Source: Arthrobacter antioxidans (GTDB lineage Bacteria > Actinomycetota > Actinomycetes > Actinomycetales > Micrococcaceae). Taken from it: 64,000 nt of DNA. Made by a program: the position numbers and the translations under genes. The notes below the pieces were generated by a model, which was not told the origin of the DNA, ran no database searches, and saw nothing but the letters and a program-made list of their open reading frames with translations. Of this stretch, positions 1,381-29,188 are shown piece after piece. Every line of letters starts with the position of its first letter. The stretch's first letter is position 1. The DNA lies in contig NZ_CP095501.1 in NCBI RefSeq assembly GCF_023100725.1, positions 434,001-498,000 on the forward strand. The letters run 5' to 3'.

Positions 1381-1878
1381 CTACATGTCCTTGTCGAGGA
1401 GGGTGGGGTGTGCGTGGCCCTGGCGGTGACCGCGGCTCGCGGCGCCGTCCGCGGCGTACGTGCCCGCGCCGGTGCCGATCCCCGCAAGGGTCTCCTGCGC
1501 CGACCGGCTGGCCGCCTTCAGGAAGTGCTGGTTGGTGTCGCGCAGCGCGCCGATCTGCGCCACGAGGACCGTCATCGCCTGGAGGTGGGCCGTCAGCAGT
1601 TCACCCCAGGGTTCGTCGGGGGCTGCCACGGCCAGCTCCCGGAGGGTGGCGGCGCCGTCGATCCCCCAGTCCTGCGCCACGGCGGAGGCATGGACGGCAC
1701 GGGCGAGCCCCGTGTCGCGGAGCCGTTCGAGCACCTGTTCCACCTCACGGGTGGCGTGGTGGAGCCAGCGGGTCTTGCCGGACGTGAGGAGGAGTTGTTC
1801 CTCCTCGAGTTTGAAGACGAGGAGCTCGAGCAGTTCGCGCTCCTGCCAGAGCAGGGCGGACAGATTCTGGGCGCTCAC
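1381..1878 (-). CDS. flgN: FlgN-like flagellar export chaperone
   Basis: A 165-residue, mostly helical protein with leucine- and glutamate-rich N-terminal segments (for example ERELLELLVFKLEEEQLLL) and no membrane segment, as in the FlgN family (FlgN/PF05130). FlgN binds the hook-filament junction proteins FlgK and FlgL in the cytoplasm and delivers them to the export gate. Placement directly before flgK, with a 7-base gap, supports this more than the sequence does, because FlgN proteins diverge strongly. The start is a GTG at 1876-1878 preceded by GGAGGTAGAACC, a strong ribosome binding site. The tail after about residue 130 is Gly/Ala/His rich and probably disordered. Expression is likely from the sigma28-type promoter about 45 bases upstream. 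Confidence 0.8.
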   Translation of the reverse strand: MSAQNLSALLWQERELLELLVFKLEEEQLLLTSGKTRWLHHATREVEQVLERLRDTGLARAVHASAVAQDWGIDGAATLRELAVAAPDEPWGELLTAHLQAMTVLVAQIGALRDTNQHFLKAASRSAQETLAGIGTGAGTYAADGAASRGHRQGHAHPTLLDKDM

Positions 1879-1993: not shown

Positions 1994-4255
1994 TCATCGG
2001 GGAACGGCGGTGACCTTCACGACCGGTGTGTTCCGGGTGATCCACGGGACCACCTTCGCGGCCGGCAGCGGCTTGGCGAAGTGGAAGCCCTGGGCGAGAT
2101 CGCACCCCAGCGCGCGCAGTTCCACCAGCGTCTCCGCGTTGTCGACTCCCTCGGCGACCACCCGCAGGTCGAGGCTGTGGGCGAGGTCGATGATCGAGCC
2201 CACGAGCCCGCCGGCGCGTGGATCCGTGCGCATGGCGGTGATGAAGGACCGGTCCAGTTTGAGCTCGTCGGCGGGAAGGTCACGCAGGTAGGCCAGGGAG
2301 CTGTAGCCGGTCCCGAAGTCGTCGATCGAGATCTCGATGCCCGCGGTGCGAAGGCGCGCAAGGATCTTCGCGGAATGGGCCGGATCGGCCATCAGCATGT
2401 CCTCGGTGATCTCCAGCATGAGGCACTTCGCCGGCAGGTTGTGCTGCTCGAGCAGGGTGAGGATCTGCCGGGGCAGATACTGCTGGATACAGGACCCGGA
2501 CAGGTTCACGGCGACGCTGATCGTCAGCCCGTCGTCATGCCAGCGCGAGGCCTGGTCCACCGCCGCTTCCAGCACGAGCGTGGAGAGCTGGGGCATCAGG
2601 CCGGCTTCCTCCGCCAGGGGGAGGAACGACGTCGGGGGCAGCTGCCCCAGAACAGGGTGGTTCCACCGGACCAGCGCCTCGACGCTCGTCACGGTGTCCT
2701 CGGACAGGCGCACCTTGGGCTGGTAGTGCAACTCGAACTGGTTCTCGAGCAGCGCGGTACGGAGCTCCTCGAGGGTCCTCAGCTTGCGTGCGCCGCCGTC
2801 GTCGTCCATCGAACTGTAGAGATGGTGCCCGCTCCGACTGGACTTGGCCCGGAACATGGCGATGTCCGCCTTCCGCATCAGGAGGCTGATGTCGGTGCCG
2901 TTCTCCGGTGTGAGGGCGATGCCGATGCTGACGCTGGTCTTCAGCGAGGCCGTCCCGATCCGGATCGGTTCCGCGAGTTCCGCTTCCAGCCGCCGCGCCA
3001 CCCTCAGGGCTTCCTCCGTGGACAGGCCGTCGAGGAACACCGCGAACTCGTCGCCACCGAGGCGGGCGAGGATGTCCTCCTGCCTCAGCGCCCGGGCGAA
3101 GCGCTCGCTCACCTGGACGAGGAGGGCGTCACCGACGTTGTGCCCCAGGGCGTCATTGACGTCCTTGAAACGGTCGAGGTCCAGGAAGAGCAGGGCGCCC
3201 GGGTGACGTTTGTCCAGCCGTCCGCGAAGATCCCTGACGAGCCCCCGGCGGTTCGGGAGCTTCGTCAGCTCGTCCGTGGTCGCGAGGGTGACCAGCATCC
3301 GGTTCCGGAAGAGGAGGGGCAGTGCCGCCAGGAGGAGGGTGAGGGCGGCGAGTACCTGGGCGAGGGGCGCGATGGGTACCTGGCACCCGATGAGCAGGAC
3401 GGCAACGGCCGAGGTCGTGGACCCCATGAGCATGGTGACGGCAGGCAGGCCACGATCCTGGTGGCGCAAAGCCGTCCCTCCCCGGGCGACGCCGTCGACC
3501 CAGAGGGCGATGGCGACGATTCCCAGGATCCAGCCGGTGTCGACGGCCGAGCCGACAACGTAGTCCTGCACGCCCAGCGCGAAGGCGATATCGGCGGCGG
3601 TGAAAAGGACCAGGCCGGCCACGAGCAGCAGCCAGCGCGGGCCGAGATCGAGCCCGCGTGAGGCCAGCAGGCCGCCGACGGCAGTGATCAGCAGGAGATC
3701 GAGGAGCGGGTAGATGACGACGACGATCATCCCGAACGTCGTGCCGCCGCCCGCTCCGGACCGCAGGATCGGCGCGAGGACCATGGCCATGACGGACGCG
3801 GCGGCCAGCGCTCCCACCAGGCTGTCCAGCAGCAGGGGCCAGGTCACGCCCTTCAGCTTCCGCACCGTCACCGCGAGGGCGCCGAGCATCAGAGGGTAGA
3901 AAACGATGTAGGCGACATCCGCAGCGGAGACGACGTCGTGGGCCTGCTGCCCGTCCAGCGTCGAGAGATAGTAGACGTCGCCTGCCGTGTAGGCGGTCAC
4001 GGCGGCGGCTCCGAACACCACCTGCCACTGGGACAGTCGGGTCCTCAGGACGGCGCTGACGCAGACGGCCACGGCGGCGAGTTCGGCGATGATGCCGAGC
4101 CATACGCCGACGACGTCGAAGCGCACCAGATCGCCGAGCAGGAGACCGACGACATACAGCAGGGATACGGCGACCGTCGTGATCACCGGAATCCGTGAGA
4201 TCTGCGTCCGCACAGCGCCACCCACGACAACTTCACGCTGCGCAACAGCACGCAC
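1994..4255 (-). CDS. Membrane GGDEF-EAL cyclic-di-GMP synthase/phosphodiesterase
   Basis: This 753-residue protein has about nine hydrophobic segments in residues 1-300, then a GGDEF domain (about 320-470) and an EAL domain (about 490-745). The GGDEF site is intact (RLGGDEF near residue 400). The EAL domain keeps SVEALVRW (near 525), the DDFGTGYSS loop and AEGV, so both diguanylate cyclase and c-di-GMP phosphodiesterase activity look possible. Cyclic-di-GMP usually controls the switch between swimming and surface growth, so a place between flgN-flgK and fliC suggests motility control; that is inference. No sensor domain other than the membrane part is seen. The start is GTG at 4253-4255, preceded by GGAAGGAAATACTG. 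No sigma28-type box is seen upstream of it, so it is probably transcribed separately from the structural genes. Confidence 0.92.
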   Translation of the reverse strand: MRAVAQREVVVGGAVRTQISRIPVITTVAVSLLYVVGLLLGDLVRFDVVGVWLGIIAELAAVAVCVSAVLRTRLSQWQVVFGAAAVTAYTAGDVYYLSTLDGQQAHDVVSAADVAYIVFYPLMLGALAVTVRKLKGVTWPLLLDSLVGALAAASVMAMVLAPILRSGAGGGTTFGMIVVVIYPLLDLLLITAVGGLLASRGLDLGPRWLLLVAGLVLFTAADIAFALGVQDYVVGSAVDTGWILGIVAIALWVDGVARGGTALRHQDRGLPAVTMLMGSTTSAVAVLLIGCQVPIAPLAQVLAALTLLLAALPLLFRNRMLVTLATTDELTKLPNRRGLVRDLRGRLDKRHPGALLFLDLDRFKDVNDALGHNVGDALLVQVSERFARALRQEDILARLGGDEFAVFLDGLSTEEALRVARRLEAELAEPIRIGTASLKTSVSIGIALTPENGTDISLLMRKADIAMFRAKSSRSGHHLYSSMDDDGGARKLRTLEELRTALLENQFELHYQPKVRLSEDTVTSVEALVRWNHPVLGQLPPTSFLPLAEEAGLMPQLSTLVLEAAVDQASRWHDDGLTISVAVNLSGSCIQQYLPRQILTLLEQHNLPAKCLMLEITEDMLMADPAHSAKILARLRTAGIEISIDDFGTGYSSLAYLRDLPADELKLDRSFITAMRTDPRAGGLVGSIIDLAHSLDLRVVAEGVDNAETLVELRALGCDLAQGFHFAKPLPAAKVVPWITRNTPVVKVTAVPR

Positions 4256-4293: not shown

Positions 4294-4452
4294 GAGCCTG
4301 ACCGAACAGCGAGCTTACGGCGGACCCAGGGGCCCGATCCTCGATCCGGCCCGTTCCGGCTCAACCCACGGCGAAAACTACGGTTACCTTGCGTCTGGCC
4401 GGGCTGTGCGACGCACGTCATGGCATTCCCCGAAAAAAAGTTCAGCGGATTC

Positions 4453-4481
4453 CTAACGTCCCCAGGGGTCGGTTCCGATAG
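4453..4481 (+). promoter_or_regulatory. Sigma28-type promoter of fliC
   Basis: CTAACG at 4453-4458, 16 bases, CCGATAG at 4475-4481. Transcription would start about 4487, at the foot of the leader hairpin. Same box as before flgN, flgB, flbD and fliM. Confidence 0.82.
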
Positions 4482-4485
4482 CTAC

Positions 4486-4534
4486 GGTTGCCGGCCCATG
4501 GATGGGCCGGCGATAGCAACCCTTTCACGGAGGA
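4486..4534 (+). promoter_or_regulatory. fliC leader hairpin with probable CsrA sites
   Basis: A perfect 8-bp stem, GCCGGCCC (4490-4497) with GGGCCGGC (4504-4511), closes the six-base loop ATGGAT, which holds a GGA at 4500-4502. GGTT (4486-4489) and AACC (4518-4521) can extend the foot. A second GGA pair lies in the Shine-Dalgarno GGAGGA at 4529-4534, eight bases before the ATG. CsrA binds GGA in hairpin loops (consensus core CARGGAUG), and in Bacillus subtilis hag it uses one loop site plus one site over the ribosome binding site. The match in layout is direct; regulation is inferred. Confidence 0.65.
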
Positions 4535-4541
4535 ATACATC

Positions 4542-5369
4542 ATGGGTTTCCAGATCAACACCAACACCGCGGCCAACACCGCATACCGCAACCTCTCCAG
4601 CACCCAGGGCGACATGTCCAAGTCGCTCGAGAAGCTGTCCAGCGGTCTCCGCATCAACCGCGCAGCCGACGACGCCGCCGGCCTGGCGATTTCCGAGGGC
4701 CTGCGCTCGCAGATCGGTGGCCTGGGAGTTGCAGCCCGCAACGCGCAGGACGGCATCAGCGTGGTCCAGACCGCTGAAGGTGCGCTGACCGAGGTCCACA
4801 GCATCCTGCAGCGTGTCCGCGACCTGGCAGTCCAGTCGGGTAACGACTCCAACAACGCCGAGGCCCGTACGGCCATCCAGACCGAAGTGACGGCACTGGG
4901 CGATGAGCTCTCGCGTATCGCCACGTCGACCAACTTCAACGGCACGGACCTGCTGAGCTCGGCAGCAACGAGCCTTACGTTCCAGGTCGGAGCGGGCTCG
5001 GACGCTGCGAACGACCAGATCAGCGTTGCGGCCACCGACATCGAGGCAGTAGCGACCGCAGTCAAGACTCTCACGTTCGTCGACTCGGCAGCAGCCCTGA
5101 CGTCGATCGCCGAGCTCGACACGCAGATCACGGCCGTGTCCTCGGCGCGCTCCGAGCTCGGTGCCGTGCAGAACCGCTTCGAGTCCGCGATCAACAGCAT
5201 CAACGTCACGCAGGAGAACCTCTCGGCGGCCAAGTCCCGCATCACGGACACCGACATGGCGAAGGAGATGGCCGACTTCACCCGTGCGAACATCCTCTCG
5301 CAGGCCGGTACCGCGATGCTGGCCCAGGCCAACCAGATGAACCAGGGTGTCCTTCAGCTCCTCCGCTAG
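4542..5369 (+). CDS. fliC: Flagellin
   Basis: Flagellin is the subunit of the extracellular filament. The 275-residue product has the conserved N-terminal D0/D1 region (MGFQINTNTAANTAYRNLS, then LSSGLRINRAADDAAGLAIS) and C-terminal D1/D0 region ending NQMNQGVLQLLR. The middle between about residues 140 and 190 is short, so the variable outer domains D2/D3 are nearly absent, as in other short Gram-positive flagellins. The segment LQRVRDLAVQSGN is the conserved D1 helix. The start is set by the conserved MGFQIN and by GGAGGA eight bases before the ATG; an in-frame ATG at 4488 lies inside the leader hairpin and is not used. It has its own sigma28-type promoter, a probable CsrA-controlled leader and a hairpin terminator, so it is a single-gene transcript with strong expression expected. 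Confidence 0.97.
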   Translation: MGFQINTNTAANTAYRNLSSTQGDMSKSLEKLSSGLRINRAADDAAGLAISEGLRSQIGGLGVAARNAQDGISVVQTAEGALTEVHSILQRVRDLAVQSGNDSNNAEARTAIQTEVTALGDELSRIATSTNFNGTDLLSSAATSLTFQVGAGSDAANDQISVAATDIEAVATAVKTLTFVDSAAALTSIAELDTQITAVSSARSELGAVQNRFESAINSINVTQENLSAAKSRITDTDMAKEMADFTRANILSQAGTAMLAQANQMNQGVLQLLR

Positions 5370-5391
5370 ACGGTGAGTTCGTAGGCAAGAG

Positions 5392-5440
5392 TGCACGGTG
5401 GCGGGACTGATCCTGGACCGAGAGGTCCCGCCACCGTGCA
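5392..5440 (+). terminator. Hairpin terminator after fliC
   Basis: A perfect 16-bp inverted repeat: TGCACGGTGGCGGGAC (5392-5407) pairs with GTCCCGCCACCGTGCA (5425-5440) around a 17-base loop, 22 bases after the fliC stop. There is no T run, which is common for actinobacterial terminators. Confidence 0.75.
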
Positions 5441-5503
5441 TTCGCCGCGAAACATCCCTACTAGGTAAGCAACACCTTCCAGCCCCACCCGAGAGGTAGA
5501 CCC

Positions 5504-6880
5504 ATGGCGTTCTCCATCGACGGCATCGCGAGCGGGCTGGACACCACGAACATGATCAACCAGCTCATGCAGCTGGAAGCACGCCCGCAGACGCTCCTCA
5601 AGGCCAAGGCCACCTCGACGCAGGGCTTCGTCACCGCCCTGCAGCAGCTGAACAAGCAGCTCGGCTCCCTGACCGAGCTCGCCGCCAGGACCGCGAAGCC
5701 CGCGGCCCTCGACCTCTACACGGTCGCCAGCAGCTCCGACGCCGCCACCGCCACGGCCACCTCGTCCGCCGGCGCCGGCACCCTCGACTTCACCGTGAGG
5801 CAGCTCGCCTCCTCGCAGTCCTCCGTCTCGGGCTCCATGACGGCCTTCTCCCCGGCGGCCTCCACGCTCACCCTGCGGGCGAAGGACGGCACCACGACCG
5901 AACTCGCCACCACCGGAAGCCTCGACGACGTCGTCGCCCAGGTGAACAAGGCCGACGTCGGCATCACCGCCACGAAGGTCAGCGCCGGAAAGGACGCCGA
6001 CGGCGTACAGCAGTACCGGCTCCAGTTCACCGCGCAGGAGCCAGGGGCCGAGCACAGCTTCGCGGTCTACCGTGGCACGGCAGCGGACGTGACGGCCGGC
6101 ACCGCGACCGATCTCTTCACCGAGACCGGCGCGGCCACCGTGCGCGCCGCGCAGGACGCCGAGGTGGTCCTCTGGGGTGGAACCGCCGCCGAGCAGACCG
6201 TGGCGTCGTCGTCGAACACCTTCGCGGACATCCTCCCCGGCGTCTCCGTCACCGTCGCCAAGGCCACCACCGAGCCGGTGTCCGTGACCGTCTCCCGCGA
6301 CACCGAAGCCACCTCCACGAAGGCGAAGGAGCTCGTGGACGCACTGCGGGGCGTCTTCTCCTTCGTGGACGCCAACACCAAGGTCACGCCGGGTGCGACG
6401 GCTGGTGCCGCGCCGACATCGGGCCGCTTCACGGGCGACAGCGCCGTCCGCGGGATCGCCCAGTCGATCCTCACGGCGGCGACGGCGCCCATCAACGGCA
6501 GATCGACGTCGGAGCTCGGCATCACGCTGACCCGCTCCGGGACCGTGGAGTTCGACGCCGAGAAGTTTGCCGCCGCGCTCGCGGAGGACCCGGCCGTAGT
6601 GAAGGACGCCCTCACCCAGCTCGCAGGGCGCGTCGCTGAAGCGGGCAAGGCCGCCTCGGACAAGTTCGACGGCGAACTCACGCGCCGGATCACGAGCCAG
6701 GAATCGACGGTCCGCAGCCTCAACGACCAGGTGTCCGGCTGGGACCAGCGGCTCGAGAAGCGCCGCGCCACCCTGGAGCGCACCTATTCCGCGCTCGAGG
6801 TCCAGCTCTCACAACTCCAATCGCAGGGGGACTGGCTGTCATCCCAGCTGGCCGGCCTCCCCACCGGAAGCGGGCTCTAG
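5504..6880 (+). CDS. fliD: Flagellar filament cap protein FliD
   Basis: FliD (HAP2) caps the growing filament and guides flagellin assembly. The 458-residue product starts MAFSIDGIASGLDTTNMINQ, the typical FliD N-terminus, followed by a coiled N-terminal D0 helix rich in Gln and Leu. The middle is Ala/Thr rich beta structure, and the C-terminus (about residues 375-450) is a helical D0 partner with LNDQVSGWDQRLEKRRATLE and SQLQSQGDWLSSQL. A GAGAGG ribosome binding site precedes the ATG at 5504. It directly abuts fliS. I see no sigma28-type box in the 63 bases between the fliC terminator and this gene; transcription may come from readthrough or another promoter. Confidence 0.95.
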   Translation: MAFSIDGIASGLDTTNMINQLMQLEARPQTLLKAKATSTQGFVTALQQLNKQLGSLTELAARTAKPAALDLYTVASSSDAATATATSSAGAGTLDFTVRQLASSQSSVSGSMTAFSPAASTLTLRAKDGTTTELATTGSLDDVVAQVNKADVGITATKVSAGKDADGVQQYRLQFTAQEPGAEHSFAVYRGTAADVTAGTATDLFTETGAATVRAAQDAEVVLWGGTAAEQTVASSSNTFADILPGVSVTVAKATTEPVSVTVSRDTEATSTKAKELVDALRGVFSFVDANTKVTPGATAGAAPTSGRFTGDSAVRGIAQSILTAATAPINGRSTSELGITLTRSGTVEFDAEKFAAALAEDPAVVKDALTQLAGRVAEAGKAASDKFDGELTRRITSQESTVRSLNDQVSGWDQRLEKRRATLERTYSALEVQLSQLQSQGDWLSSQLAGLPTGSGL

Positions 6881-7345
6881 ATGCTGCAGATGAACGGATA
6901 CCAGGCCAAGCGCTCGCAGTACGTGCAGGATGCCGTCCTGTCGGCGACCCCCGCCGGACTGCTGACCATGCTCTACGACCGGCTGCTGCTCGACCTCGCG
7001 CGGGCCGGCGCCGCCCAGGAGGCGGGGGAGTGGTCGGTCGCCTCGGAGAACCTGCTGCACGCGCAGGACATCGTGGGCGAGCTGATGTCCTCCCTGCGCA
7101 CGGACGTCTGGGACGGTGCGGCCGGCCTCATGTCCCTCTACACCTATGTGCGGCAGACCCTGGTCGAGGCCAATACCCGGCGGGACCGCGCCAAGACAAC
7201 TGAGTGCGCCGAGATCCTCGAACCGTTACGCCAGGCCTGGCACGAGGCGGCCCGCACCGGGCACGCGCAGCCGGTGGACCAGACCCCCGCGTTCCAGCAG
7301 GACCAGGACGCGCCCCGCTCCCTCGGGGTCCTCGGTGTCGGCTGA
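6881..7345 (+). CDS. fliS: Flagellin export chaperone FliS
   Basis: FliS binds the disordered C-terminus of flagellin in the cytoplasm, stops early polymerisation and presents flagellin to FlhA. The 154-residue product has the family signature early on: YQAKRSQYVQDAVLSATPAG followed by LLTMLYDRLLLDL, then helical segments ending near LYTYVRQTLVEAN and a helix with AEILEPLRQAWHEA. The last 25 residues look disordered. Its ATG directly follows the fliD stop (no gap) and its end overlaps the next gene by 11 bases if that gene uses GTG at 7335. Confidence 0.93.
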   Translation: MLQMNGYQAKRSQYVQDAVLSATPAGLLTMLYDRLLLDLARAGAAQEAGEWSVASENLLHAQDIVGELMSSLRTDVWDGAAGLMSLYTYVRQTLVEANTRRDRAKTTECAEILEPLRQAWHEAARTGHAQPVDQTPAFQQDQDAPRSLGVLGVG

Positions 7346-7703
7346 TCCCGACAGCCCGATGGCCACCGCAGCCTTCACGGCCTGGACCGCCGTCCTCGAC
7401 GCGCTCGAAGCCGCGCTGGATGCCGCGCCCGATTCCGCGGTCGACGACGCGGGAGACTTCGCGGCCGGCGACCTCGTGCGTCAGACCGCCGTCCTCGCCG
7501 GCTGGATCCCGCCGCAGGTGGACGGACCCATCCCCGCCGAACTCCTCCCCCGTGCGCACAGCATCAGCGAACGACAGCAGGCCGTGCTCGGCCGCCTGAC
7601 GGCCGACGCCGACACCCTGCGGCGCCACCGGAGCGCCCTCGGGTCGGTCCGTGCAGCGACCGCCCGGCAGGAGTCGGCCGTCTACCTCGACGTCACGGGC
7701 TGA
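7335..7703 (+). CDS. Small helical protein at the FliT position
   Basis: This 122-residue protein is not recognised by sequence. It is Ala/Asp rich, predicted helical, with no signal peptide, cysteine or membrane segment; the C-terminal half (SERQQAVLGRLTADADTLR) looks like a coiled helix pair. In many genomes fliS is followed by fliT, whose product is a small helical chaperone for FliD, so a FliT-type role is possible from position alone. Start choice is uncertain: GTG at 7335 overlaps fliS by 11 bases, and ATG at 7359 is the alternative; neither has a strong ribosome binding site. It ends 18 bases before the flgB promoter. Confidence 0.65.
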   Translation: MSADPDSPMATAAFTAWTAVLDALEAALDAAPDSAVDDAGDFAAGDLVRQTAVLAGWIPPQVDGPIPAELLPRAHSISERQQAVLGRLTADADTLRRHRSALGSVRAATARQESAVYLDVTG

Positions 7704-7721
7704 AGTTCCCCCGGAGAGTAC

Positions 7722-7750
7722 CTAACGGCAGGCCCGGGCACGTCCGATAG
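7722..7750 (+). promoter_or_regulatory. Sigma28-type promoter of the flgB operon
   Basis: CTAACG at 7722-7727, 16 bases, CCGATAG at 7744-7750, followed by about 75 bases of leader before the flgB start. The boxes are identical to those of fliC. Confidence 0.82.
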
Positions 7751-7827
7751 TTCCCGGTGAGCATGGATCGCTCACTCCCAGGCCATGGATCGGCCGCTCA
7801 GCCTTGTCTGCAGAAGGTCCTCCCGCC

Positions 7828-8169
7828 GTGCTCGATTCAGTGTCCTCGCTCGCCATGCGCAGTGCCCTCGACGGGCTCGCCCTGCGCCAGCGCGTCACAG
7901 CGAACAACATCGCCAACGTCAACACCCCCGGCTTCCACGCCCAGCGAGTCAGCTTCGAGGACGCCCTCGCGCGGTCGGTGTCCATGGGGAACGGCAGCGT
8001 CCAGGCCACCACCGACACCTCCCTCGAACCCACCCGGCTCAACGGCAGCAACGTCAACATGGACACGGAGACCCTCTCCAACATCGACACCGTGCTGCGC
8101 TTCCAGTTCGCGGCCCGCGCCGTCGAAGGGCCCTTCACCAGCATCCGCACCGCGCTGAGGAGCAACTGA
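7828..8169 (+). CDS. flgB: Flagellar proximal rod protein FlgB
   Basis: FlgB is the first rod protein above the MS ring. The 113-residue product has the rod signature RQRVTANNIANVNTPGFHAQ and a C-terminal helix (NIDTVLRFQFAARAVEGPFTS) of the kind that packs in the rod core. I chose GTG at 7828, which gives the family N-terminus LDSVSSLAMRSALDGLALRQ and has AGAAGG ten bases upstream; a TTG at 7804 in the same frame would cover that ribosome binding site. FlgB is the first gene of the long rod-basal body-export operon. Its stop overlaps the flgC ATG by one base, as expected for translational coupling. Confidence 0.92.
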   Translation: MLDSVSSLAMRSALDGLALRQRVTANNIANVNTPGFHAQRVSFEDALARSVSMGNGSVQATTDTSLEPTRLNGSNVNMDTETLSNIDTVLRFQFAARAVEGPFTSIRTALRSN

Positions 8170-13436: not shown

Positions 13437-13870
13437 TGGCACGACAGTTCCCCCTCGCAGGCCTGCTCCGGCTGCGCCAGCTGCGCGAGGAGGAGGCCGC
13501 CGGATCCCTGGCGGCGGCGAACGAACGCCTCCGCGCATCGCGTACCCGCACCGACGTCCTCAGCGACGCCCTCGACGGCACGGACATCAGCCCCGCCGGA
13601 TCGGCGTCGCTCTACGCGGTGGCCGCGGCCCGGGCGTCGGCGCGCAGCATGCTCGCCGACCTGCGCGCTCTCGAGGAGCAGCTGCAGAGTGAGCAGGGCC
13701 GCGCACAGGACCAGTACCGCGCCGCACGAGCGGCGACCATGGGCCTCGAGAAGCTCGAGGACCGCCACCGGGACACGGAGGCGACGGCGCTGATCGGCGC
13801 CGAGCAGCGTGTCCTCGACGAACTCGCCTCGGTCAGCAGTGCCCGACGCAGTGCAGAGGAGAGAGCATGA
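13436..13870 (+). CDS. fliJ: Flagellar export protein FliJ
   Basis: FliJ is a two-helix coiled coil that inserts into the FliI hexamer and links it to FlhA. The 144-residue product starts FPLAGLLRLRQLREEEAAGS, the usual FliJ opening, and continues as two long charged helices broken near residues 45-55 (the LSDALDGTDISPAG turn). No membrane segment or cysteine. It is coupled to fliI (1-base overlap) and to the NlpC/P60 gene (4-base overlap). Confidence 0.88.
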   Translation: MARQFPLAGLLRLRQLREEEAAGSLAAANERLRASRTRTDVLSDALDGTDISPAGSASLYAVAAARASARSMLADLRALEEQLQSEQGRAQDQYRAARAATMGLEKLEDRHRDTEATALIGAEQRVLDELASVSSARRSAEERA

Positions 13871-14655
13871 CCATCACCGACGCGGTAGGCCGCATCCAGC
13901 AGATCCAGTCCACCCTCACCATGCTCTCCACACCGGCGGCGCGCGCGCAGGCCGCTCCGGCGACGACGGGCGCCTCCTCGGCGGGTTCCTCGAAGGCGGC
14001 GCCGGGTAGCTCCGCAGACCTGTTCGCCGATGCGCTCGCGGGTGTCTCCGGTGCTTCCGGTGGTGCAGCAGGCGCCGGGTCCGCCGACGCGGCTCCCGCC
14101 GTCGCGCCCGTTGCCGGGTCCTCGGCGCCGGCGCCCGTCGCCGGAGCCGGTACCGCCCCGGTCCCCGTTCCCGCCTCGGCGGACGCGGCCCGGCTCATCG
14201 AGGCCGCGCGGTCCTACGAGGGCGTCCCGTACGTGTGGGGCGGCACCGACCCGGCGTCCGGCCTCGACTGCTCGGGCTTCGTGCAGCGTGCGTACGCGGA
14301 CATCGGCATCCAGATCCCCCGCGTCACCTGGGACCAGATGAACGCCGGCACCCAGGTCCCGTCCCTCGCGGAGGCCCAGCCCGGTGACCTGCTGTTCAGC
14401 CTCGAGGGCGGCCACGTGTCCATGTACCTCGGGGGCGGCAAGGCGATCGACGCCCCGCAACCCGGCAAGACCGTCGCGGTCCGGGACATGTGGGAGACCG
14501 ACGCGAACATCACCACCATCCGCCGCATCCTGCCGGCCGATCCCGCCGGAACCGCGTCCGTGGCGGCCCCGGCGGTCGCCGCTGCCGCCGTTCCGGAATC
14601 CGCCGAGCCGGCGTACGCGGCCCAGGCGGCCTTCCTCGCGAGCATGGCGCGATGA
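13867..14655 (+). CDS. NlpC/P60 (C40) peptidoglycan hydrolase in the FlgJ slot
   Basis: The 262-residue protein has an N-terminal helix (MTITDAVGRIQQIQSTLTML), an Ala/Pro/Ser-rich linker to about residue 110, and an NlpC/P60 peptidase domain (about 115-225). Catalytic Cys is in GLDCSGF (C135) and His in GGHVSMY (H183); YVWGG before the Cys is also typical. C40 enzymes cut peptide bonds in peptidoglycan stems. In proteobacteria FlgJ carries a muramidase that opens the wall for the rod; here this gene lies between fliJ and fliK, so it probably does that job with another chemistry. No signal peptide is seen; export through the flagellar gate, as for FlgJ, would fit. It overlaps both neighbours by four bases. 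Confidence 0.9.
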   Translation: MTITDAVGRIQQIQSTLTMLSTPAARAQAAPATTGASSAGSSKAAPGSSADLFADALAGVSGASGGAAGAGSADAAPAVAPVAGSSAPAPVAGAGTAPVPVPASADAARLIEAARSYEGVPYVWGGTDPASGLDCSGFVQRAYADIGIQIPRVTWDQMNAGTQVPSLAEAQPGDLLFSLEGGHVSMYLGGGKAIDAPQPGKTVAVRDMWETDANITTIRRILPADPAGTASVAAPAVAAAAVPESAEPAYAAQAAFLASMAR

Positions 14656-19968: not shown

Positions 19969-19972
19969 ACCG

Positions 19973-20000
19973 CTAACGACCGGCCGACGTCGTCCGATAG
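19973..20000 (+). promoter_or_regulatory. Sigma28-type promoter of fliM, apparently leaderless
   Basis: CTAACG at 19973-19978, 15 bases, CCGATAG at 19994-20000. The fliM GTG begins only nine bases after the -10 box, so the transcript should start at or within two bases of the start codon. Confidence 0.75.
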
Positions 20001-20008
20001 TCGTTGGC

Positions 20009-20920
20009 GTGACGGTCCAGGAACAACTCTCCTTTGGCGTGCCCTCGGCACCCGCAAGGGCGGTGGATGTCTATGACTTCCGCCGTCCCACCACGCTCGC
20101 CCGCGAGCACTCCCGCGTGCTCGAACTCGCGTTCGAGACCTTCGCGCGCCAGTGGGGTACGCAGCTCACCGCGAAGGTCCGCGTGATCTCGCAGGTGACC
20201 AGCGAGCAGGTCCTCATGCAGACCTACAACGAGTACGCGGCATCGCTGCCTGCCACCACGGCGATGGTCCTGTGCGCCATCCCGGACCACACGAGCAAGG
20301 CGGTGATCCAGTTCCCCGCCTCGGCGGGCCTGTTCTGGGTGGATTCCATGCTGGGCGGCCACGGTACGGTCCCTCCGGGCGAGCGGAAGTTCACGCAGAT
20401 CGAGCAGGCCCTGATCCGGCGGCTCATGGACGACGCCCTCGAGGGGCTCCACTATTCGCTCGGGTCCGTGCTGACGCACCAGCTGGGGATCGACTCCCTC
20501 CAGTACAACTCGCAGTTCGCCCAGGCGGCCTCGACCACGGAGCTCATGATCGTGGGCACCTTCGAGATCCGCGTCGGGGAGCGGTCCTGCCCCGCGACGG
20601 TCGCCATCCCTGCGCAGCTCCTGCTGGCACAGCTCGGTGACACGAACCCGACCGCGACCGGCGAGGACGCCCGCGAACTGATCGAGCAGCAGGTGGCGCA
20701 CGTGCCCGTCGACGTCGCGGTGCAGCTCGCCGCGCTGCCCGTGCTGCCCTCACGCATCCTCGACCTCGCCGTCGGGGACGTCCTGAAGCTGCCGCATCCG
20801 CAGCACCGGCCTTTCGAGCTCGCCATCAACGGGCAGCGGCTCGGCGAGGCCGCCCTGGGCCAGAACGGATCCCGCCTTGCCTGCGTAGTAGTGACCACCG
20901 AGGAGAACCCCGCACCATGA
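20009..20920 (+). CDS. fliM: Flagellar motor switch protein FliM without the usual CheY-binding N-terminus
   Basis: FliM links FliG and FliN in the C ring. The 303-residue product has the CheC-like middle domain with the LGGHG motif (LFWVDSMLGGHGTVPPGERK) and a C-terminal SpoA domain (LPSRILDLAVGDVLKLPHPQ). The first 25 residues (VQEQLSFGVPSAPARAVDVY) lack the family N-terminal CheY-binding motif (LSQxEIDALL in enterics). GTG at 20009 is the start that keeps most sequence; a GTG at 20039 in the same frame is possible. No ribosome binding site precedes 20009, which fits the leaderless promoter. fliM and fliN overlap by four bases. Confidence 0.92.
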   Translation: MTVQEQLSFGVPSAPARAVDVYDFRRPTTLAREHSRVLELAFETFARQWGTQLTAKVRVISQVTSEQVLMQTYNEYAASLPATTAMVLCAIPDHTSKAVIQFPASAGLFWVDSMLGGHGTVPPGERKFTQIEQALIRRLMDDALEGLHYSLGSVLTHQLGIDSLQYNSQFAQAASTTELMIVGTFEIRVGERSCPATVAIPAQLLLAQLGDTNPTATGEDARELIEQQVAHVPVDVAVQLAALPVLPSRILDLAVGDVLKLPHPQHRPFELAINGQRLGEAALGQNGSRLACVVVTTEENPAP

Positions 20921-25352: not shown

Positions 25353-27401
25353 ATGCGCTCATCCGCCCCCAAGTTCCTGGTGCCCGTCGGGGTCGTCGGC
25401 ATCATCCTGCTCCTCGTGGTGCCGGTGCCCTCGGTACTGCTGGACCTCCTGATCATCGTGAACATCCTGCTCGCGCTGGTGATCCTCCTCAACACCATGT
25501 TCATCCGCAAGCCGCTGGACTTCTCGGTGTTCCCGTCCCTGCTGCTCGTGGCCACGCTCTTCCGCCTGGGCCTCAACGTCGCCTCCACCCGCCTCGTCCT
25601 CGGGGACGGCTACGCCGGCGAGGTGATCGCCGCGTTCGGGCACGTCGCGGTCGGCGGCTCGATCATCATCGGCGCGGTGGTCTTCCTCATCCTCGTGGTC
25701 ATCCAGTTCGTGGTGGTCACCAAGGGTGCCGAGCGCGTGGCCGAGGTGGGGGCCCGCTTCACCCTGGATGCGATGCCGGGCAAGCAGATGGCCATCGACG
25801 CCGACCTCAACGCCGGGCTGATCACGGACACGCAGGCCCGCGAGCGGCGCGCCGAGGTCTCGGCGGAGGCCGACTTCTACGGGGCCATGGACGGTGCGTC
25901 CAAGTTCGTGAAGGGCGATGCGATCGCCGGCATCATCATCATCATCATCAACCTCGTGGGTGGCATCGCGATCGGGATGCTGCAGGACGGCCTGCCGGTC
26001 TCCGAGGCACTCACCACCTACGGCCTGCTCACCATCGGTGACGGCCTCGTCACCCAGATCCCGGCGCTGCTCATGGCCGTGTCCACCGGCATGATCGTCA
26101 CGCGCTCCAACGCCGAGGCGGACATGGGCTCCACCGCGGCCCAGCAGCTCGGCCAGTCGCAGAACGCCCTGCGCATCGCGGGTGCCGCGGCGGTCGTCAT
26201 GGCACTGATCCCGGGTATGCCGAAACTGCCGTTCATCGTGGTGGGCGCGGGCCTGATCGTCATCGCGCAGAGCATCAGGAAGTCCGAGGCCGATGCCCGC
26301 ACGGCCGCCACGGCGCTGGAGGCCGAGGCCGCCCGGCCGTCGACCGACAGCACCGACGACCTCCTGGAGCAGATGCGCGTCCACTCCCTGGAGGTGCTGC
26401 TGGCGCCCGACCTGGTGGACGTCGTCACCGGGGCGCCGGACGATCTCCTCGGCCGGGTCCGCGCCCTGCGGCGCAAGATCGCCCTGGAGCTCGGCGTCGT
26501 GGTGCCTCCGGTGCGCACGCGGGACAGCGTGGAGCTGCCGCCCGCCACGTACGTCATCAAGATCGCCGGCGTCGAGGCGGGGCGGGGCGAGGCTCCGCGC
26601 GGCAAGGTCCTGGCCCTCGGCGACCATCTCGCACACCTGCCGGGCACCGCCGTCGTCGAGCCGGTCTTCGGACTCGCCGGGAAGTGGGTGCCCGCCGAGC
26701 TCCGGCACAACGCCGAACTGGCCGGGGCCACCGTGATCGACCGCGTGTCCGTCCTCGTGACCCACCTGTCCTCGGTCATCACGGCGAACGCCGCGCGCCT
26801 GCTGTCCCGGGAGGACGTCCGGGTGCTGACCGACGGCGTCCGCCAGGTGAACCCGTCGGCCGTCGAGGAGCTCGTCCCCGGGCTGCTGTCCCTCGCCGAG
26901 GTCCAGCGCGTCCTGCAGGGACTCCTGTCCGAGCAGGTGCCGATCAACGATCTCTCCCGCATCTACGAGGCGCTGACGCTCAGGGCCAAGGCGTCCTCCG
27001 AACCCGAGGGGCTCATCGAGGCGGCGCGGCTCGCGCTCGGGCCGGCGGTCACCCAGCAGTACCTCGACGGCACGCTGCTGCGGGTCATCATGATCGACCC
27101 GCTGCTCGAGCAGTCGATGCTCGAGGGGCTCCGGCCCTCCGACCAGGGCACGCAGATCATGCTCGATCCGGCGCGCACCGATGCCGTGCTCTCCTCGGTC
27201 CGCTCGACGGTCGCCGACATCGAGGCCGCCGGGAACTCGGCCGTGCTCGTGTGCGCGCCCGCGCTGCGGCCCGCACTTCGGCGTCTCGTGGGACCGCAGG
27301 CGGCGAACCTGCCCGTGCTGTCCTACCAGGAGGTCACGAGCGCCAACGTCGCGATCGAGACAGTAGGAGTGGTCCGTGGTACCGCAGTTATTTCATCTTG
27401 A
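25353..27401 (+). CDS. flhA: Flagellar export gate protein FlhA
   Basis: FlhA is the nonameric export gate that docks chaperones and uses the proton gradient. The 682-residue product has about eight membrane segments in residues 1-310, including FSVFPSLLLVATLFRLGLNV and the FHIPEP-type loop region (KGAERVAEVGARFTLDAMPG, then KQMAIDADLNAGLITD). The cytoplasmic domain (about 340-682) has the expected LEQSMLEGLRPS and ALRPALRRLVG. ATG at 25353 has GGAGG upstream. The last 26 bases overlap the FlhF-like gene. Confidence 0.97.
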   Translation: MRSSAPKFLVPVGVVGIILLLVVPVPSVLLDLLIIVNILLALVILLNTMFIRKPLDFSVFPSLLLVATLFRLGLNVASTRLVLGDGYAGEVIAAFGHVAVGGSIIIGAVVFLILVVIQFVVVTKGAERVAEVGARFTLDAMPGKQMAIDADLNAGLITDTQARERRAEVSAEADFYGAMDGASKFVKGDAIAGIIIIIINLVGGIAIGMLQDGLPVSEALTTYGLLTIGDGLVTQIPALLMAVSTGMIVTRSNAEADMGSTAAQQLGQSQNALRIAGAAAVVMALIPGMPKLPFIVVGAGLIVIAQSIRKSEADARTAATALEAEAARPSTDSTDDLLEQMRVHSLEVLLAPDLVDVVTGAPDDLLGRVRALRRKIALELGVVVPPVRTRDSVELPPATYVIKIAGVEAGRGEAPRGKVLALGDHLAHLPGTAVVEPVFGLAGKWVPAELRHNAELAGATVIDRVSVLVTHLSSVITANAARLLSREDVRVLTDGVRQVNPSAVEELVPGLLSLAEVQRVLQGLLSEQVPINDLSRIYEALTLRAKASSEPEGLIEAARLALGPAVTQQYLDGTLLRVIMIDPLLEQSMLEGLRPSDQGTQIMLDPARTDAVLSSVRSTVADIEAAGNSAVLVCAPALRPALRRLVGPQAANLPVLSYQEVTSANVAIETVGVVRGTAVISS

Positions 27402-28908
27402 AGGCCCCTCCCTCGAGGAGCTGAAGGCGAAGGCCGCGGCGCTGTACGGGCCGCGTGCCCTCATCGTGTCCGCGGAACTCGTGACGGTGGGCGGGATTCG
27501 CGGTGTCCTCGCCCGGAAGCACTACGAGATCGTGGTCGAGGTGCCGGAGCCCGACGGCGAGGGTGGCCTTCGTGCCGGCACCGCCGGCAGCGCGCGCTCG
27601 CGGGGCGGGTCCCCGGACGGGCCCCGTGGCGGTCCCGTCGGTGGTCCTCGGGCCGGTTCTCGTGGCGGGTCCCCTGACGGGGCCCTCGGTGGAGCGCCCG
27701 GCGGCGCTTTCGGAGCGCCCGGCGGCGGTCGGCCGCGCGGGCGCCGGAGTGCGGCCGCCGGGCCATCAGGTCTCGATGCGCTCCTCCAGCAGGCCGAACT
27801 CGATGAGGTCCGCATAGCGTCCGGGCCCGATGCCGACCGCGCCGGGGCCCCGGAACCGCGCAGCGCGCCCCCGGCTGCGGTGTCCACGGATTCCGGTCTC
27901 TTCGCGGCCCTCATGGACGAACTGACGTTCGCCACCGACCCTGCGGCAGCGCCGGTCCCCTCCTCGATGCCGGGCGCCTCGGGTGACGCCGGGGCCGGGG
28001 CCGCCAGGACCCGGCGGTCGATCGCGGTGGACCGGGATGCGGTGGCTTCGTCCGCGTCGGGCCTACCGGATGTCCCCGGGGCCGGGACCGCCGGGACCCG
28101 GCGGTCGATCGCGGTGGACCGGGATGCGTGGGCCGAGGACCCGGACCGAGGATCCTCCGATTCCACCCGGGCCGGTGCGGGGTTCGGACGTGAGTCCGGT
28201 GCCGCATCCGACGCCGAGTTCCTCCGCGAGCGTGCCGGCGACCCGACGGATCTGCCCGAGGTCCGGGGCCAGGTTCTCAGGGTGCCCGTCGCCGCGCCGG
28301 CCGCGCCCTCGGTGCTGCGGGCGCCGGGTGATCTCGTCATCGTCGTCGGAGCGCCCGCCGCGGGCTGGGCGGTCGCCTCCTCGATGGCCACCGTCCTGGG
28401 CCGGGGAGCACCAGCAGCCGTCGCGGTCTCGGGGCCACCGGACCGGGTGCACCCCGAGGGCCGCTCGGTCGACGACCGGCTGGAGGCGAACGCCGCCCGT
28501 GCCGCAGGAGTCGACGGCGGGCACGCCGTCTTCGTCGCGTTGTCCTCGGAGGACCCCCTGGTGGACGCCCGCGCCCTGCTCGCGCTGCGACCCGACCAGG
28601 TGTGGCTCGCCGTCGATGCCGGCCGCAAGGAGGCGGACACCGCGGCGTGGGTCGGGGCACTGCGCCGCAGCATGGAGCGCGCCGGGCTCGCTCCGGCGGG
28701 ACTCGCCGTCGTCGGGTCGGCAACCACGGCGACGCCGGAGAGCGTGCAGGCGCTCGGCCTCCCCATCGGGTGGCTGGAGGGGCGTCCCGCAGGCGAGGTC
28801 GAGACTTCTCCTGCCGCTGCGTCGGCCGATGATCGCCTCTCTGCTCCTGCAGGGCCGCGCAGGCCGGGCAGCGGTCGACGCCGTGCCGAGCCGGCCGGGA
28901 TAGAGTGA
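27376..28908 (+). CDS. FlhF-like protein with a degenerate GTPase site
   Basis: The 510-residue product has an FlhF-type N-terminus (LEELKAKAAALYGPRALIVS, then TVGGIRGVLARKHYEIVVEV), a long Gly/Arg/Pro and Ala linker (about 60-310) and a C-terminal Rossmann-like domain (about 315-480). FlhF is an SRP-family GTPase that sets flagellar position and number. Here the expected P-loop GxxGxGKT is replaced by VVGAPAAGWAVASS, with no lysine, so GTP hydrolysis is unlikely. The linker holds a duplicated block TRRSIAVDRDA (28010-28043 and 28097-28130). GTG at 27376 has AGGAG upstream and overlaps flhA. Placement after flhA is the normal flhF position. I call it FlhF-like, not FlhF. Confidence 0.78.
   Translation: MVPQLFHLEGPSLEELKAKAAALYGPRALIVSAELVTVGGIRGVLARKHYEIVVEVPEPDGEGGLRAGTAGSARSRGGSPDGPRGGPVGGPRAGSRGGSPDGALGGAPGGAFGAPGGGRPRGRRSAAAGPSGLDALLQQAELDEVRIASGPDADRAGAPEPRSAPPAAVSTDSGLFAALMDELTFATDPAAAPVPSSMPGASGDAGAGAARTRRSIAVDRDAVASSASGLPDVPGAGTAGTRRSIAVDRDAWAEDPDRGSSDSTRAGAGFGRESGAASDAEFLRERAGDPTDLPEVRGQVLRVPVAAPAAPSVLRAPGDLVIVVGAPAAGWAVASSMATVLGRGAPAAVAVSGPPDRVHPEGRSVDDRLEANAARAAGVDGGHAVFVALSSEDPLVDARALLALRPDQVWLAVDAGRKEADTAAWVGALRRSMERAGLAPAGLAVVGSATTATPESVQALGLPIGWLEGRPAGEVETSPAAASADDRLSAPAGPRRPGSGRRRAEPAGIE
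28901..28906 (+). promoter_or_regulatory. Possible -10 element of a leaderless csrA transcript
   Basis: TAGAGT followed by exactly six bases and the csrA ATG. No convincing -35 is seen. The same spacing occurs before several other genes in the window. Confidence 0.4.
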
Positions 28909-28912
28909 CACG

Positions 28913-29188
28913 ATGCTTGTACTCACGCGAAAGGTCGGCGAGCAGATCCTGATCGGCGACGACATCGTCATCACGGTGCTCGATTCCCGTGGCGATGGTG
29001 TGCGCATCGGTATCGACGCACCCCGGGGCGTCAAGATCCAGCGCGAGGAAGTCCTCCGCGCGGTCACCGAAGCGAACCTGGCGGCCGCGGCGGCTGGGGC
29101 CGACGGCGCCGACGCACTGAAGGCCCTGCTGCAGTCCGGTGCGACGGTCTCCGCCGACGACGCGGGCGCCGACCAGCCGGACGCCTGA
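28913..29188 (+). CDS. csrA: Carbon storage regulator CsrA
   Basis: CsrA is a small dimeric RNA-binding protein that blocks translation by binding GGA sites; in Bacillus it represses flagellin until FliW removes it. Residues 1-60 are the full family domain: MLVLTRKVGEQILIGDDIVI and PRGVKIQREEVLRAV, with the key RNA-contact region KIQREEV intact. About 30 extra residues follow (Ala/Asp/Gly rich), making 91 against the usual 60-75. It is the last gene of the flagellar cluster, four bases after the FlhF-like gene. fliW is not in the window. The fliC leader holds probable target sites (4486-4534). Confidence 0.95.
   Translation: MLVLTRKVGEQILIGDDIVITVLDSRGDGVRIGIDAPRGVKIQREEVLRAVTEANLAAAAAGADGADALKALLQSGATVSADDAGADQPDA

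Follow-up and report, generated by a model that had tools for sequence, protein, structure and literature searches.

Candidate CsrA sites in conserved fliC and flgB leader RNAs of Arthrobacter antioxidans and other flagellated Actinobacteria

In Arthrobacter antioxidans, two flagellar leader RNAs, one ahead of the flagellin gene fliC and one ahead of flgB, present conserved hairpin loops that are candidate sites for CsrA. We consider it very probable (roughly 0.88) that CsrA represses fliC translation, that FliW relieves this repression, and that flgB is a second CsrA target, likely one whose expression is promoted. The observations behind this reading are the covarying fliC hairpin, both fliC sites, the two-hairpin flgB leader, the presence of CsrA and FliW, the residues of CsrA, and the co-occurrence of the leaders with csrA; from them we infer all CsrA binding, the sign of control on flgB, the starts and extents of the transcripts, and the logic of the switch. 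The analysis followed up a first-pass annotation of a 64,000-nucleotide stretch of contig NZ_CP095501.1 (positions 434,001 to 498,000; hereafter the window), to whose first letter all coordinates refer unless a contig is named.

The fliC leader and its conservation

The features of the fliC leader are listed below in the order in which they occur.

4452..4480, plus strand: sigma-28-like promoter of fliC, CCTAAC - 17 nt - CCGATA, read from the sequence
4487..4514, plus strand: fliC leader hairpin, core stem 4491-4497/4504-4510, from RNA folding and covariation in relatives
4498..4503, plus strand: hexaloop ATGGAT, CsrA-type site 1 (ANGGAN), kept in 81/81 leaders
4526..4534, plus strand: CACGGAGGA, Shine-Dalgarno overlapping CsrA-type site 2, with CANGGA here in 79/81 leaders
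4542..5369, plus strand: fliC, flagellin (275 aa), with Flagellin_N and Flagellin_C (Pfam)

The leader comprises a GGA-loop hairpin and the ribosome site CACGGAGG, followed by the ATG at 4542. The first-pass annotation had described a GC hairpin with an ATGGAT loop, a second GGA in the Shine-Dalgarno, and a transcript beginning at the hairpin foot. These elements can all be read at 4491-4510 (CCGGCCC-ATGGAT-GGGCCGG) and 4526-4534, and the -10-like CCGATA at 4475-4480 places the predicted 5' end at that foot. The stem and loop are present as described, but the predicted stem is longer than had been stated, with 12 base pairs in the minimum-energy fold, in which the two end bases of the loop, A and U, are paired with each other as well. 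Only 43 of 81 leaders have T as their last loop base, so this extra A-U pair lacks conservation and the conserved form is the hexaloop ANGGAN, which is the form described for RsmE/CsrA (PMC7652899). The loop had been scored as matching the CsrA core CARGGAUG at 7 of 8 positions; the core is indeed matched, and the fit is better than this count because the differing base is free in the ANGGAN structural consensus.

The leader has a predicted folding energy of -29.7 kcal/mol, compared to -21.4 +/- 3.1 for shuffled sequences (z -2.7; 2 of 200 shuffles were as good), and GGA hairpins of at least 5 pairs occur in only 2.0% of 14032 background windows of 110 nt taken from relatives. Rfam returned no match for either the fliC or the flgB leader up to E = 1 (window 4300-8000). 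Within 4517-4547, an AACCC ahead of the Shine-Dalgarno is able to pair with GGGUU at the start codon.

Relatives were collected by a flagellin-similarity scan with one genome per species, which gave at least 80 loci chosen by protein and not by leader; they include Arthrobacter and other Micrococcaceae, Microbacterium, Leifsonia, Curtobacterium, Frigoribacterium, Cellulomonas, and one Nocardioides. The loop CANGGANG is kept in all 81 leaders (the window and 80 relatives), while the stem varies by compensatory pairs. All 74 distinct sequences have a paired C and G closing the loop, and in 66 of them stem pair 3 is CG, GC, TA, or AT. When sequences were folded singly, 68 of the 81 leaders had a free loop GGA (paired <0.2); in the other 13 it was partly paired.

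Covariation was scored on 28 of the 81 leaders, which are less than 80% identical in the first 26 nt (L068 was left out beforehand). In this alignment 83.3% of cells are paired vs. 62.4% after shuffling, and double changes are found at 7 of the 9 stem pairs. The covariation score is 0.522, in contrast to 0.171 for shuffled data and at most 0.145 when the partners are slid by 1-3 columns. Among non-Watson-Crick stem pairs G-U is enriched (0.38 vs. 0.23 expected), which points to RNA rather than DNA as the acting form. To judge from these alignments, a GGA that stays constant while its stem drifts under pairing constraint is an RNA site in an ANGGAN hexaloop. The two-site CsrA reading put forward for this leader is thus supported: CA(C/T)GGANG is present outside the Shine-Dalgarno in the window's leader and in 80 of 80 relatives, the stems of the 28 diverse leaders covary, and both CsrA and FliW are present.

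A phylum set of 29 fliC leaders consisted of the best-scoring flagellin matches with our own genome left out, and is a non-random sample in which several come from one genus. An A(N)GGA hairpin with at least 3 pairs was found in 17 of the 29, compared to 1.3 expected from shuffling, and CANGGA at the Shine-Dalgarno in 25. In six distant leaders (L098, L110, L112, L115, L117, L119) the loop AAGGAT is flanked by C and G, which gives CARGGAUG exactly. Four of the 12 hairpin-negative leaders (L097, L099, L100, L111) keep a short stem, by eye, with the loop ATGAG or ATGAA, and retain the ribosome-site GGA despite having lost that of the loop. Orthologous leaders with the stem kept and the GGA lost had been named as evidence against CsrA control; no such case occurs among the 81 near leaders, but these four distant ones look like it. 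By this count, some deep lineages are without the fliC GGA hairpin.

The flgB leader and the flagellar gene run

A second leader and the surrounding genes involve the following features.

1381..1878, minus strand: flgN, first of flgN-flgK-flgL-fliW (Pfam FlgN)
7721..7749, plus strand: sigma-28-like promoter of the flgB gene run, CCTAAC - 17 nt - CCGATA
7756..7776, plus strand: flgB leader hairpin A, GGTGAGC-ATGGATC-GCTCACT; folds and is conserved
7781..7795, plus strand: flgB leader hairpin B, GGCC-ATGGATC-GGCC; conserved, absent from the minimum-energy fold of the window's leader
7828..8169, plus strand: flgB, first gene of the rod/basal-body/export run, with Flg_bb_rod (Pfam)
19972..19999, plus strand: sigma-28-like promoter before fliM, 9 nt from fliM, practically leaderless and without a GGA hairpin
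28913..29188, plus strand: csrA (91 aa), Pfam CsrA at 85 bits, the only CsrA-family match in the genome
G000:C1:432735-433103, about 0.9 kb left of the window, minus strand: fliW, directly after flgL, Pfam FliW, one match in the genome

The first-pass annotation had tied the CsrA layout to fliC. The fliC leader does have it, but so does the leader of flgB, which contains two GGA hairpins with a GGA-to-GGA distance of 22 nt. A common rule was used to scan 120 nt upstream of flagellar genes for an ANGGA loop of 6-8 nt closed by at least 4 Watson-Crick pairs. Two such hairpins are present in 61 of 70 related flgB leaders, and at least one in 69. For fliC the rule finds 74 of 80 leaders, as it is stricter than the CAYGGA-anchored count of 81/81. 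Six other flagellar genes gave 0 to 4% (flgN 0/67, flgK 0/67, flgL 1/67, fliW 0/65, fliD 3/78, fliS 0/77), and background windows 549/25698. In the genome under study, the hairpin of the flgN leader, viewed by eye as an internal control, has a loop without GGA.

In the 61 two-site flgB leaders the sites are spaced 21-28 nt apart, and the last of them is 34-71 nt upstream of the start codon, leaving the ribosome site uncovered. This is a layout of the flhDC type, in which two candidate CsrA sites are close to the predicted 5' end and at a distance from the start codon. The flgB alignment holds 40 of 42 leaders chosen from 68 (67 relatives and the window); L040 and L052 were left out because of a wrong site pair, and L028, L039, and L076 were not located. 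Covariation in it is weak (2 of 9 pairs; score 0.091 vs. 0.072), since the hairpins are nearly invariant. The window's own flgB leader folds no more stably than shuffled sequences (z 0.98).

A strict sigma-28 pattern occurs at 3 places in the genome, two of which are before fliC and before flgB. A looser pattern matches 58 of 81 fliC leaders (85-nt zone), compared to 153 of 17155 background windows of 85 nt, and 54 of 70 related flgB leaders (115-nt zone). The run that begins with flgB includes basal-body, motor, and export genes and then csrA, all on one strand, with an internal promoter before fliM; csrA had been named as the last gene of the cluster, and it does end this flgB-to-csrA run. 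The promoter before fliM ends 9 nt ahead of the fliM GTG (19972-20011), which predicts a nearly leaderless transcript and could provide a route for csrA supply that bypasses the flgB leader.

Several other genes of the cluster were recorded. A GGDEF-EAL protein of 753 aa (Pfam; 1994-4255, minus strand) is encoded divergently from fliC, between fliC and flgN, and is likely a cyclic-di-GMP enzyme within the flagellar cluster. The large ORF at 27376-28908 (plus strand), between flhA and csrA, has no Pfam or NCBIfam match and seems to be of low complexity beyond its first 60 residues, which may resemble the N-terminus of FlhF. An NlpC/P60-family gene is located at 13867-14655, inside the window's flagellar gene run. 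The FlgL of flgN-flgK-flgL-fliW is a flagellin-type FlgL. Several Curtobacterium leaders of flgN-flgK-flgL-fliW (L048, L053, L055, L066, and others) have, by eye, a hairpin with the loop CAGGATG; none of these hairpins passes the ANGGA-hairpin rule, and fliW itself may be a CsrA target in that genus.

Co-occurrence with csrA, and the CsrA and FliW proteins

Searches were made with two covariance models, R1 for the fliC leader and R2 for the flgB twin hairpins. Each has one strong place in this genome: R1 at fliC (63.4 bits; next 16.9) and R2 at flgB (57.4 bits; next 20.5). The gene csrA is present in 87 of 297 genomes of the order. At E <= 1e-5, R1 matches 59 genomes with csrA and 2 without, leaving 28 csrA genomes without a match; the corresponding values for R2 are 50, 2, and 37, and under either model 208 of the 297 genomes have neither csrA nor a match. 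The four matched genomes that lack csrA (G423, G548, G514, G570) are assemblies of 570-1060 contigs. With thresholds of 1e-3 (R1) or 1e-4 (R2), at least one leader is found in 81 of the 87 csrA genomes and neither in 6. At E <= 1e-3, R1 also matches 8 genomes without csrA. At E <= 0.01, R2 matches 112 of the 297 genomes, 44 of them without csrA, which is far more than the nominal rate would give; this model was therefore applied only at 1e-4 or below. E-values are rough, and the filters applied to the 297 genomes were stricter, at the cost of some weak matches. Both leaders track csrA across the 297 genomes, in counts that ignore shared ancestry. In the phylum set described above, R1 at E <= 0.001 matches only 3 of the 29 fliC leaders.

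All 30 loci among the best R1 matches (own genome included; 84 genomes had matches) precede flagellin genes, 23 recognized by pattern and 7 by reading. For R2, 34 matches were examined, a non-random choice made up of 12 fetched automatically, extra copies, and other strong matches; 30 precede flgB, and of the remaining four, one each is ahead of fliP and fliH and two are ahead of an NlpC/P60 peptidase gene. Those before flgB include matches in large genomes of family f88 (G506, G520, G492). At one locus, L154 (G645:C3:115500-134000), twin-hairpin leaders occur three times in 14 kb, ahead of flgB, fliH, and fliP, and two others, L155 and L158, have an extra twin-hairpin leader before an NlpC/P60 peptidase gene.

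The first-pass annotation saw no fliW, which is true inside the window, but its suggestion to search beside flgL to the left was borne out, as fliW was found there. The FliW protein is divergent, passing the Pfam cut-off and falling below those of NCBIfam. In CsrA, R6, R44, and N55 are present in 21 of 21 sequences checked, the window's included. Residue 51 is V, I, or L in 7, 11, and 3 of the 21, and residue 43 is Q in this genome and H in 11 of 21. The features of a partner switch are found on both sides: the proteins offer the RNA-binding Arg44, a C-terminal extension with the FliW-contacting Asn55, and a fliW gene in the genome, and the flagellin leader offers a GGA in its hairpin loop and a second over the Shine-Dalgarno.

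In a phylum sample of 396 genomes, 60 have a flagellin-family match; of these flagellated genomes (own included), 58 have csrA and 57 have fliW. The two without a csrA match, G197 and G359, are unsafe as csrA-less flagellate controls, G359 being 85% complete and the fliW of G197 lying 537 bases from a contig end.

Proposed mechanism, alternatives, and known systems

In the mechanism we propose, a CsrA dimer would dock on the ANGGAN hexaloop of the fliC leader and reach the ribosome site 29 nt downstream; one dimer can bridge two sites at 10-63 nt, best at >18 (PMC7652899). CsrA on the Shine-Dalgarno would block flagellin translation. FliW, whose gene is the last of flgN-flgK-flgL-fliW, a run with no such site in its leader, would bind CsrA around N55, a residue needed for FliW binding in Campylobacter jejuni and Bacillus subtilis (PMC7829508), and would lift the block, with cytoplasmic flagellin sequestering FliW until the hook is complete. 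On the two 5' hairpins of flgB, clear of the start site, CsrA would most likely stabilise or otherwise promote the message. Free CsrA would then mean basal body on and filament off.

Three other explanations of the fliC leader were considered. As a strong hairpin at the predicted 5' end, it could be a cap against mRNA decay with its GGA kept by descent. This is very improbable: a cap needs no GGA, yet A-N-GGA is kept in 81/81 leaders while 7 of the 9 stem pairs have changed in both partners, and this loop is found again ahead of flgB but is almost absent from the leaders of the six other flagellar genes scanned. We find it barely conceivable that this near-perfect inverted repeat next to a promoter is a DNA palindrome, immediately after the sigma-28 promoter, to which a transcription regulator binds, because G-U pairs exceed chance, the arms vary between species around a constant loop (the opposite of an operator), and flgB has two different stems with an identical loop. 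A protein-free RNA switch, in which CCCA-AUGGG pairing hides the start codon and CsrA is secondary, would account for the fact that 57 of 81 leaders have CCCA in the 18 nt ahead of their Shine-Dalgarno, where base composition predicts 19, and for the mean predicted AUG pairing of 0.59. It is nonetheless improbable, as the pairing spans only 4-5 bp across a long loop and the upstream hairpin and its GGA are left unexplained.

The more serious question concerns the sign of control at flgB. The twin leader might be a repressing CsrA site, or might titrate CsrA as a decoy, instead of stabilising the message; we hold this to be a substantial possibility, though short of even odds. The spacing of its sites suits a single dimer, given the bridging range cited above (PMC7652899), but the uncovered ribosome site makes direct blocking unlikely (a decoy role is still conceivable), and two 5'-proximal sites are the layout of flhDC, whose mRNA CsrA protects in Escherichia coli (PMC7652899). 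Protection of the flgB message by CsrA is somewhat favoured over ribosome blocking, because the sites lie near the predicted 5' end and the last is 34-71 nt before the start. One regulator would then probably balance motor building against filament building, and csrA may be under its own control via the flgB leader, if one transcript reaches csrA. More tentatively, and with slightly less than an even chance in our judgment, flagellated Actinomycetes may share a two-armed CsrA checkpoint that acts through previously undescribed conserved leader RNAs, holding flagellin off and basal-body genes (and thereby csrA) on until FliW flips both at hook completion.

Candidate CsrA RNA sites are thus conserved widely in Actinobacteria and extend to the early flagellar run that ends in csrA, and the timing of basal body vs. 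filament by CsrA is now directly testable. Together they point to a clear-cut putative CsrA regulon in a phylum for which no direct test of CsrA was found in the available text of the literature on CsrA with Arthrobacter, Actinoplanes, Microbacterium, FliW, or actinobacterial flagellin; literature on CsrA, flgB, and leader hairpins gave no report of the flgB leader. The earlier view that Arthrobacter-like actinobacteria offer no firm example of such control fits this literature, but proposals do exist. CsrA control of the Kineococcus radiotolerans flagellin was proposed in 2008 from its Shine-Dalgarno sequence (PMC2587704). A 2015 study suggested, on the basis of gene presence, that FliW controls CsrA in several phyla, Actinobacteria included (PMC4682653). 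In the available text of a 2023 study of actinobacterial flagella, CsrA and FliW are named once each, in a gene list (PMC10746217).

The Kineococcus case shares with ours an actinobacterial flagellin, csrA in a motility cluster, and a noted Shine-Dalgarno site; the available text of that paper contains no upstream hairpin site, FliW, cross-actinobacterial leader comparison, or flgB leader (PMC2587704). In E. coli, flhDC is likewise an early flagellar message with a pair of CsrA sites close to its 5' end (PMC7652899), but the gene here is flgB and not a master regulator, and protection is what we infer for it. FliW, present here, is absent from Gammaproteobacteria (PMC7652899). CsrA control of flagellin has been demonstrated in both Campylobacter and Bacillus (PMC4894983, PMC7652899). 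The flaA leader of C. jejuni is similarly short and has two ANGGA stem-loops, of which the second covers the ribosome site, as well as compensatory stem changes, and fliW is likewise not adjacent to csrA in that organism; however, its flgB mRNA was hardly enriched with CsrA (<=1.6-fold; PMC4894983), whereas flgB here has a two-hairpin leader. The CsrA-FliW-Hag system of B. subtilis has the same elements, namely CsrA, FliW, and two flagellin-leader sites with one over the Shine-Dalgarno (PMC7652899). In contrast to that system, csrA here is not beside fliW but ends the flgB-to-csrA run, and a second leader, that of flgB, carries candidate sites of this kind.
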